This document shows, piece after piece, positions 10,816 through 16,066 of a stretch of DNA of 40,204 nucleotides. A program made the translations under genes and the position numbers. Numbering within the stretch: the first letter of the stretch is position 1; each line of letters opens with the position of its first letter. Location of the stretch: assembly GCA_005888365.1 (NCBI GenBank), contig VAWZ01000002.1, forward strand, positions 9,985-50,188, given 5' to 3'. The DNA comes from Actinomycetota bacterium. GTDB lineage: Bacteria > Actinomycetota > Thermoleophilia > Gaiellales > Gaiellaceae. The notes below the pieces were generated by a model. That model was not told the DNA's origin and ran no database searches. It saw nothing but the letters and a program-made list of their open reading frames with translations.

Positions 10816-11923
10816 CTAGACGACTCTCCCGGCCGCCTTCGCGAGCAAGTAGGCGTGGACGAACCCGTCGAGACGGCCGTCGAGCACCGACTGCGCGTTC
10901 CCGACCTCGAAGTCCGTCCGGTGGTCCTTCACGAGCTGGTATGGGTGGAGCACGTACGAGCGGATTTGACTCCCGAAGCCGATGTCCTGCGCCGCGCCCC
11001 GCTCCTTCGCCAGCTCGGCCTCGCGCCGCTCCTCCTCGAGCTCGGCGAGGCGTGACTTGAGCACGCGCATGGCCGTCGCCTTGTTCGAGGCCTGGGAGCG
11101 CTCGTTCTGGCACTGGACGACGATCCCGGTGGGAAGGTGGGTGATCCGGACCGCCGAGTCCGTCTTGTTGACGTGCTGTCCGCCCGCGCCCGTCGCGCGG
11201 TAGGTGTCGATCCGCAGGTTGTTCTCGTCGATCTCGATCGGCGCCTCGTCGGGCAGCAGCGGCGCGACGACGACCTGCGCGAACGCCGTGTGACGGCGGT
11301 GAGCCGCGTCGAACGGCGAGAGCCGGACCAGCCGCTGCACCCCGCGCTCCGCCTTGAGCGTCCCGTACGCGTTCTCTCCCCGGACCGCCATCGTCGCGGA
11401 CTTCAACCCCGCTTCCTCGCCGGGGCTCGCCTCGAGCATCTCGGTCTCGAACCCGCGGTCGGACGTCCACCGCTGGTACATGCGAAGGAGCATCTCGGCC
11501 CAGTCCTGGGCGTCGGTTCCGCCGGTGCCGGCGTGGATCTCGAGGATCGCGTCGCCTGCGTCGTATTCGCCGGTGAAGAGAGCGTCCTCCTGCAGGCGCT
11601 CAAGCTCGTCCTCGATCGGAGTGAGCTGCTCCGCGAGCTGCTCCTCGAACGCCGGGTCGAGCTCGAAGAGCTCCTTCGCGTCCTCGTACTCGTGTTGCAG
11701 GCGCTCGTAGCGCGCGAGCCGGCGGCTCAGCCGGGCGTGGTCGGTCGAGACCTGCTGCGCTCGAGATTGATCGTCCCAGAAGCCCGGAGCCTGCATCTCC
11801 GTCTCGAGCGCCTCGCGCCGCTGCCCGATCCGCTCAGGGTCAAAGGTAATCACGGACCCAGGCGAGCTGGGCCCCGATCTGTTCCAGTCGCTCCGCGAGC
11901 GGCTTCCCGTTGGCCTCGGACAC
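10816..11923 (-). CDS. prfB: Peptide chain release factor 2, made by programmed +1 frameshift
   Basis: The first frame runs from a GTG at 11923 through MSEANGKPLAERLEQIGAQLAWVRDYL and meets TGA at 11842-11840. The main frame continues DPERIGQRREALE from the +1 position to 10816. Together they make 368 residues, the normal RF2 length. RF2 marks are the SPF tripeptide (about 202-204) for UGA/UAA recognition and GGQ (247-249) for peptide release. The ORF-track start at 11955 misses the real N-terminus. The gene follows secA in the usual order, separated by a secreted-protein gene, and precedes ftsE by 12 bases. Confidence 0.95.
11839..11845 (-). promoter_or_regulatory. prfB recoding site CTT-TGA-C
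   Basis: The minus strand reads TAC CTT TGA CCC at codons 26-29, the same slip site used in Escherichia coli prfB. When RF2 is scarce the ribosome pauses at TGA, slips one base forward on CTT and continues with GAC. The Shine-Dalgarno-like stimulator 3 bases before the slip site in E. coli is not clear here; only a GGGT is seen about 11 bases upstream. Confidence 0.93.
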
Positions 11924-12707: not shown

Positions 12708-15371
<2,664 letters not shown>

Positions 15372-15376
15372 CGAGC

Positions 15377-15545
15377 CTAGGGGCCTGTCCGGGACGTGGC
15401 CACGGTGCACGACGTCCGGCACGCGTTGCAAGGCGAGGACGCAGGTCGCCCCGATATACACCCGTATCGGGGCGACCGAGGACGCAGCATTGCGCCGCGC
15501 GACGGATGTTGGGCGCGCTGGTTCATTTGCCGGACAGACCCCTAG
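15377..15545. mobile_element. MITE-like palindromic insertion with CTAG target duplication
   Basis: The element spans 15381-15541 (161 bp). Its terminal inverted repeats are GGGCCTGTCCGG and CCGGACAGACCC (11 of 12 match), flanked on both sides by CTAG (15377-15380 and 15542-15545). In the centre is a perfect 13-bp inverted repeat GGTCGCCCCGATA/TATCGGGGCGACC around an 8-base loop (15444-15477), bordered by two direct copies of GAGGACGCAG. The arms between also pair imperfectly, so the whole element can fold into one long hairpin. It encodes nothing. A 4-bp CTAG duplication fits the YTAR target of IS5-group transposases, which is established for that family. Assignment to it is inference, and no transposase is in the window. 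Confidence 0.7.
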
Positions 15546-15577
15546 GGTAGCGGGTCGCGGATCCGGAATCCGTGGCC

Positions 15578-16066
15578 CTACAGGGCCTCGACCTCCACCT
15601 CGAAGAGCCGGCCGTCGAGCCTCTGCGCGCGCACTACGTACTCGTTCGAGCGCGCGGCGCCGGTCCGTTCGAGCTCTGGCGGGACCGCAAGCGAGGGCAA
15701 CCCGTCGATGCGGGCGCGAGCCCCGGTCTCGTCGCGAACGACTTCGACGGCGTCCCCGCGCACGTCCGCCGCGAGCTCGACCACCTCGAGCGCGAGAGCC
15801 CCGACGACCCAGAGCTCCGGTCTGCGGACCCCGAGCGCGCGGTAGGGCGGCTCGATGGAGCCCGCAAGCGCGGCCGCGAGCAGGGCAGGATCGACCTCCG
15901 AGGTCGTAGCCTCGACCAGCAGCCTTCCCCCAGGCAAGGCGACGAGCTCGACCTCGTCGCCCGCGGCGCCTCCTGCGGCCACGGTCGTGACGGCGTCCCA
16001 CTCACGATGGCGGGCGAGCCCGGTGATGCCTGCCGCGAGCCACTGGCGGCTCGGATCGAGTGACAT
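15578..16066 (-). CDS. Hypothetical protein between hpf and secA
   Basis: This 162-residue protein (MSLDPSRQWLAAGITGLARHREW...) has no motif I recognise. It is acidic, Ala/Val/Glu-rich, with no signal peptide or membrane segment, and looks like an alternating alpha/beta fold. The ATG is 6 bases after the hpf stop and AAGGG overlaps the end of hpf, so it is translationally linked to hpf. It may have been co-transcribed with secA before the MITE-like element arrived. No function is proposed. Confidence 0.7.
   Translation of the reverse strand: MSLDPSRQWLAAGITGLARHREWDAVTTVAAGGAAGDEVELVALPGGRLLVEATTSEVDPALLAAALAGSIEPPYRALGVRRPELWVVGALALEVVELAADVRGDAVEVVRDETGARARIDGLPSLAVPPELERTGAARSNEYVVRAQRLDGRLFEVEVEAL

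Follow-up and report, generated by a model that had tools for sequence, protein, structure and literature searches.

A mobile palindrome upstream of secA in a Gaiellaceae genome appears to belong to a family with a conserved, probably RNA-forming core

Immediately upstream of secA, a stretch of 40,204 nucleotides from an actinomycetotal genome of the family Gaiellaceae (contig VAWZ01000002.1, positions 9,985 to 50,188; hereafter the window) carries a long imperfect palindrome of 161 bp (15381–15541, plus strand) that appears to represent a Thermoleophilia family of non-autonomous elements ∼165 bp in length. The reading preferred here, with a probability of about 0.7, is that of a miniature inverted-repeat transposable element (MITE) mobilized in trans, whose core has a functional single-stranded structure, probably as RNA, and whose sense orientation is not tolerated by hosts. 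Resident DDE transposases would move the copies in trans by way of ends that resemble those of insertion sequences (IS), as matched for two end classes; the core would function in folded, single-stranded form, most likely as RNA, and be needed for the spread of the element; and a sense-transcribed core would harm the host operon by termination, cleavage or blocking, such that antisense copies survive. The family is apparently a structured MITE that is undescribed so far, and the open-access literature on MITEs or palindromic repeats in these taxa yielded nothing relevant.

Insertion into an empty site

The element has class A ends and is bordered by CTAG on both sides (15377–15380 and 15542–15545). 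Its terminal inverted repeats (TIRs) are GGGCCTGTCCGG at 15381–15392 on the plus strand and the reverse-complement copy GGGTCTGTCCGG at 15530–15541 on the minus strand; they are 12 bp long with 11 matching positions, and the paired arms extend for 17 nt at 94 per cent. The string CGAGGACGCAG occurs twice, at 15434 and at 15477, 43 bp apart. An earlier account of this DNA made from its letters only (the sequence-only reading) had listed the TIRs, the flanking CTAG, a 13-bp palindrome and the direct repeats, and all of them are present in the sequence. Two other whole copies are found in the source genome (75 and 73 per cent identity, E = 2.8e-24 and 6.9e-20), which brings the number with the window's ends to three, and the best whole copy in relatives has E = 4.5e-33. 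Because of these copies, and because the RNA fold of the window element lies 4.6 standard deviations below dinucleotide shuffles, the element is not a product of chance. Among 399 genomes of the class, 14 have this type of end.

Two genomes of the same genus as the source have an empty site at the equivalent place upstream of secA, with one CTAG and no element: G008 reads CCGGTACCCTAGGCGCG-ATG (locus L234) and G010 reads CCGGTACCCTAGGCTC-GTG (L235), where the window reads CGCTACCCTAG-element-CTAGGCTCG-ATG. The flanks of the window element, once joined, give TACCCTAGGCTCGATG, which matches the relatives. Nine copies of the source genome, including that of the window, have both flanks syntenic in the complete genome G007 of the same genus, with the element absent. 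The clearest of these (L062) reads CCTC-CTA-GTGGTTGCC...GGCGACCAC-CTA-ATGCTCC when filled and CCTCCTTAGTGCTCC when empty. The target duplications are CTAG or YTA in clear cases and are unreadable in several others. Since the empty sites of G007 hold no palindrome, the arms must move with the element, and insertion of the long type into the tips of pre-existing hairpins is ruled out.

Three of the traits by which a MITE is recognized were found, namely a short, non-coding sequence with TIRs, a target duplication with an empty orthologous site, and dispersed copies. The sequence-only reading had proposed a non-autonomous mobile element that duplicates CTAG, and both the further copies of the 161-bp sequence in the source genome and relatives and the hpf–secA spacing of relatives that lack it bear this out. 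G021 also has a derivative shortened to 67 bp by deletion, in which both class A ends are present and the core is absent (L264, around 1452–1519).

A conserved core between variable ends

The 21 copies of the source genome that were classified by their ends fall into at least six end classes. Most partial matches in this genome cover only query bases 48–122, and these places are elements with other ends; a core of ∼76 nt is common to the members of the family while the arms around it differ. In the window the core lies at 15423–15498 on the plus strand, antisense to secA, and is recognized by the covariance model R1 with 78.3 bits (E = 1.8e-18). From an alignment of 42 cores its layout is an arm GCGAGGC, ARGGACGCAGGGAGC, a variable hairpin, GCGACYGAGGACGCAGC and the other arm. 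Two copies of AGGACGCAG, at 15434–15444 and 15477–15487 on the plus strand, form the 5' and 3' sides of an internal loop, and between them stands the P2 hairpin (15444–15477, plus strand).

The proposed pairs are supported by compensatory change. Among the 42 cores, cells in which both sides had changed numbered 140, as against a shuffle mean of 48, with none of 500 shuffles reaching this value, and the signal collapses when the pairs are slid by one column. Among 110 matches, mostly from other genomes and aligned by fitting to the covariance model, the count was 437 as against a mean of 151, again reached by 0 of 500 shuffles. The core hairpin is 93–96 per cent paired. Two parts are nearly invariant, an internal loop of nine by nine, AAGGACGCA / GAGGACGCA, and the tandem G.A formed by GGGAGC / GCGACY; in the genomes labelled f10, which belong to another class, the loop is changed coordinately to AAGGCCGCA / GAGAACGCC. 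A variant with a much longer hairpin and runs of A5 and T5–6 was seen in G128 (L097 and L105), and it retains AGGACGCAGG and CGAGGACGCC.

The window copy reads GGTCGC where nearly all relatives read GGGAGC, which places tandem G.A mismatches opposite GCGACY. For this reason its P2 stem is a perfect one of 13 bp (15444–15456 with 15465–15477), the conserved mismatches having gone; the perfect central palindrome that the sequence-only reading had emphasized is real in this copy and atypical of the family.

Rfam 15 returned no relevant match in the window or at 12 other loci, so that a known RNA family was rejected as the identity of the core, which stands as a candidate RNA motif absent from Rfam. 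A hammerhead-like interpretation of CUGAGGA in some cores was dismissed on inspection, as the GAAA partner is absent.

The probable functional strand

Mismatches in the hairpin are strongly asymmetric, with 154 G.T as against 41 A.C; after dereplication, 59 copies have more G.T and 7 have more A.C. A folded single strand, whether of RNA or of DNA, tolerates a G.T wobble but not its mirror A.C. Because of this difference in tolerance, the strand carrying AGGACGCAG is, from the sequence, the predicted functional strand. The whole element folds at -104 kcal/mol on this strand versus -85 on the other, and the same strand folds better in 75 of 76 copies. The excess of G.T is alike in antisense, sense, divergent and ribosomal-protein (r-protein) contexts, and since it is present in all of them the asymmetry belongs to the element rather than to host transcription. 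It was considered whether the excess arises secondarily, from a weakening of the mRNA hairpins that antisense copies give; this was rejected, given that sense and divergent copies show the excess too. Two marks of a functional structured strand, covariation and strand asymmetry, were observed.

Distribution and orientation

The family is distributed across Thermoleophilia, from 1 to at least 150 copies per genome. In the source genome, where there are about 35 related elements, model R1 gives 36 matches to the core with E<0.01; it finds at least 150 cores in the 4.6-Mb contig JAOSKU010000001.1, and there is one strong core match in 2.0 Mb of the congener G007. An exact-pattern scan of GTDB genomes gave at least 119 stretches; among those listed, titles name Thermoleophilia, Solirubrobacterales, Gaiellaceae or more broadly Actinomycetota, with a few 'Actinomycetes' and one metagenome-assembled genome of Streptosporangiaceae. 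The core pattern had 0 matches in viral contigs, and a plasmid or phage origin was set aside on this result and on a single weak plasmid match over 25 per cent of the query. On JAOSKU010000001.1, core pairs of equal orientation are spaced 105–108 and 164–167 bp apart, and at L131 (2940–3320) one element is apparently inserted in the core of another, which suggests recurrent nesting.

Gene strands were called by homology to the open reading frames (ORFs) of G007, and 77 copies were callable. Copies antisense to co-directional genes numbered 51 and sense copies 10 (p = 1e-7), the remainder being divergent (10) or convergent (6). In the operons of the translation and transcription machinery, placement was called by tblastn with the r-protein, rpo and EF proteins of G007: the rpoBC-str-S10-spc-alpha operons hold 21 of 203 copies, all 21 of them antisense. 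This cluster covers ∼32 kb of 2.6 Mb (1.2 per cent), such that 2–3 copies would be expected. The 21 are not all independent, as they occupy ∼12 different junctions, some of which are common to distant genomes; 12 independent events would still exceed the expectation. None of the 21 comes from the source genome, in which a reading of the flanks places copies before secA, at an atpB-like/atpE-like junction, and upstream of a gene resembling dnaJ and of one resembling hemE.

Since sense copies are missing, the sense RNA may be harmful to the host operon; alternatively, the mechanism of insertion may itself impose an orientation. It might also be supposed that the element is an ordinary MITE, whose TIRs, CTAG duplications, empty sites and range of 1 to at least 150 copies per genome are usual MITE behavior, that the core is the functionless ancestry of a decayed IS interior, and that the antisense bias and the r-protein locations are accidents of sampling. 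This is very unlikely: a usual MITE keeps its ends while its middle drifts, whereas this family does the reverse; compensatory changes go beyond all shuffles in two sets, the G.T excess is strand-specific, and 21 of 21 copies in r-protein and rpo operons are antisense.

The recurrence of certain r-protein junctions raises a different possibility, that the element is retained at secA and elsewhere for a benefit to the host, whether by terminating antisense transcripts internally, by providing a processing site or by tuning expression as a leader, to name examples. The S11/S4 junction is occupied at four loci (L035, L044, L101 and L111), L14/L24 at three (L036, L102 and L203) and L22/S3 at three (L086, L170 and L203), and the sharing of these places by distant genomes is in its favor, as are the retention of r-protein copies by genomes of low copy number and the fit of antisense placement with a block on antisense transcription. 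Host benefit is nonetheless doubtful, considering that the secA genes of the other family members examined lack the element, that the congener has one strong copy versus about 35 elements in the source genome, and that a conserved part of the core is gone from the window copy. Moreover, copies at one junction have different arms, and repeated insertion is therefore possible.

Changes at a fixed place were observed elsewhere too. In two Solirubrobacterales genomes (L113 and L168) an element follows a moaD/thiS-like gene, its outer stems diverged and still complementary. At L136, L216 and L223 the core lies in opposite orientations at the same gene end in different genomes, as if it had been flipped between its arms. 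Copies of these kinds have a stationary look.

Ends and transposases

Two autonomous elements of relatives have the ends of core-bearing elements. An IS1182-like element (L273) of 1125 bp with CTAG flanks ends in CTAGGAGAGATTGGCG / CTAGGAGGGCTTGGCG, and an IS982 element (L290) of 987 bp, likewise with CTAG flanks, has the end CTAGATGATTGATGCCACGG; their outer 19–25 bases match the ends of the core elements L199 and L138. The source genome contains part of a transposase closely homologous to that of L273 (84 per cent identical over 92 amino acids). Since the ends are those of resident IS elements for two classes, mobilization in trans by DDE transposases is probable. The attribution to IS5 made in the sequence-only reading is less secure: CTAG does fit the YTAR target of that group, yet IS1182-like and IS982 elements are also flanked by CTAG, and the duplication does not discriminate among them.

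There is some reason to ask whether the fold acts as a single-stranded DNA hairpin recognized by a transposase or a host factor, in the manner of attC, IS200/IS605 or REP. Folding is strand-specific regardless of gene context, and 34 of 61 relatives have genes for Y1 transposases. Such a hairpin is an unlikely basis of the conservation, however, given that TIRs and target duplications are traits of DDE transposons and that G007 has three Y1 genes and one core, which is not near them. Nor does orientation follow replication: with the terminus taken as the antipode of dnaA, copies in a complete genome divide 78:72 between the replication strands, by which a replication-coupled insertion into single-stranded DNA was also rejected. 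Because orientation follows transcription instead, and because no hairpin-type transposase is linked to the cores, RNA is favored over DNA. A relationship to REP elements and their RAYT transposases was likewise rejected, as Y1 genes are common but unlinked to cores and the elements have no terminal GTAG or CGTC tag. In G007 a gene for a surface-type protein with about eight near-identical tandem repeats (ELTVTASSPPDGTYGDPAPTITPQYAGF...; L334, 16251–19952) was seen to adjoin a Y1 transposase gene.

Several observations weigh against a trans-mobilized MITE with a functional core. No IS with the window's ends (CTAG-GGGCCTGTCCGGAAA) was found at the PF01609/PF13751 loci of 41–61 relatives or by end pattern in 399 genomes, so that the transposase with matching ends anticipated in the sequence-only reading did not emerge from these searches. 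Among 41 transposase loci, none has the core inside an autonomous IS, and the core was accordingly rejected as part of one. Many Solirubrobacterales copies have short arms that are unique to the copy and yet complementary, and some copies sit at the identical junction in distant genomes; both kinds look more like stationary elements than a TIR-driven MITE. Finally, the tandem G.A of the core is gone from the window copy, which may be inactive.

The core may well belong to an RNA class not described before, a chance that is a real one. In a stronger form of this proposal, which is possible although tentative, the core would be a functional RNA, perhaps self-cleaving or bound by a protein, built on two tandem G.A pairs. 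It would destroy or terminate sense transcripts, for which reason the element would settle only in antisense in highly expressed operons, and some such copies in r-protein operons would have been kept over very long times. If the core is self-cleaving, AGGACGCA would be expected to be necessary for cleavage.

Comparison with known palindromic elements

BOX and RUP of Streptococcus pneumoniae are MITEs mobilized in trans by resident IS elements (PMC3049150; review PMC2229807). The present family resembles them in being small, non-coding and intergenic, in folding on itself with its TIRs paired, in having IS-like TIRs and in occurring in transcribed regions. Unlike BOX and RUP, it combines a ∼76-nt core that is conserved across taxa with ends that differ within a single genome, and it is GC-rich, strongly biased to the antisense orientation and found in excess in r-protein operons.

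Transcripts of ERIC elements undergo putative RNase E cleavage in one orientation and those of Correia elements are acted on by RNase III, both as described in PMC3049150. These too are mobile palindromes with a possible orientation-dependent effect on transcripts, an effect that would also apply here, and the reported orientation dependence of ERIC transcript cleavage gives harm by a sense RNA a precedent (PMC3049150). ERIC and Correia differ in taxon and sequence, and a core with two tandem G.A pairs is not described for them (PMC3049150).

REP and BIME elements, which form GTAG and CGTC families, are comparable as high-copy intergenic palindromes; REPs are 20–40 bp long with a terminal GTAG or CGTC tag, and some lie within longer palindromic sequences (PMC3733652). 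The present element differs from a REP in its length of ∼165 bp, its TIRs, its CTAG or YTA duplications and its lack of linkage to Y1 genes. With the IS1182-like and IS982 elements L273 and L290 it shares 16–25 terminal bases and CTAG flanks in two end classes; those, in contrast, carry transposases and no core.

Variable ends around a conserved middle invert the usual MITE pattern and raise the question of what function a MITE core may have. The family is now defined and searchable by a covariance model, and it offers a testable rule, that the folded strand lies antisense to host genes. It is also a natural experiment through which the tolerance of bacteria for strong RNA structure within essential operons can be studied.

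Probable consequences for secA

The secA gene (12708–15371, minus strand) starts with ATG at 15371–15369, its protein being alignable from MSTTSFGKFE in relatives, and five bases (15372–15376) separate this codon from the left CTAG. In 19 of the ∼20 family members examined, a TAnnnT box, mostly TACCCT, precedes the secA start by 6–10 nt, which is the geometry known for leaderless transcripts; a weak Shine-Dalgarno-like string precedes it in only one. Because of this box and the lack of a Shine-Dalgarno sequence in relatives, secA is probably leaderless in the family, insofar as promoter geometry is a guide. In the window the probable ancestral -10 box, TACCCT, is intact at 15544–15549 (minus strand) and is now ∼170 bp from the start codon. 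The element has added DNA between the -10 box and the ATG, and no part of the secA 5' region was replaced. The sequence-only reading had instead supposed that this region was lost together with a ribosome binding site, which conflicts with the intact box and with relatives that have no Shine-Dalgarno sequence. Its suggestion that the element supplies the secA promoter found no backing either, as neither promoter-like nor terminator-like sites were detected in the element by consensus.

A structured leader, as that reading also suggested, is possible, with the reservation that the strand present in the secA mRNA would be the complement of the one with the conserved structure. The mRNA, probably leaderless before, would now begin with a hairpin leader of ∼165 nt, of the non-conserved strand and without a Shine-Dalgarno sequence, and because of such a leader the translation and dosage of SecA should have changed. 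This would be a case in which a probably leaderless essential gene has been made leadered by a mobile element.

On the other side of the element, and on the minus strand like secA, lie an ORF of 162 amino acids without a Pfam family (15578–16066) and hpf (Ribosomal_S30AE, PF02482; 16073–16555). A frame similar to the 162-amino-acid ORF seems to be present at the equivalent place in some relatives, for example in G007. Farther along the window, prfB has CTTTGAC at 11839–11845 (minus strand), where the upstream frame ends in ...WVRDYL-TGA and the body of release factor 2 resumes in the +1 frame (TFDPERIGQ), an arrangement that we take to be the classic programmed frameshift of this factor.
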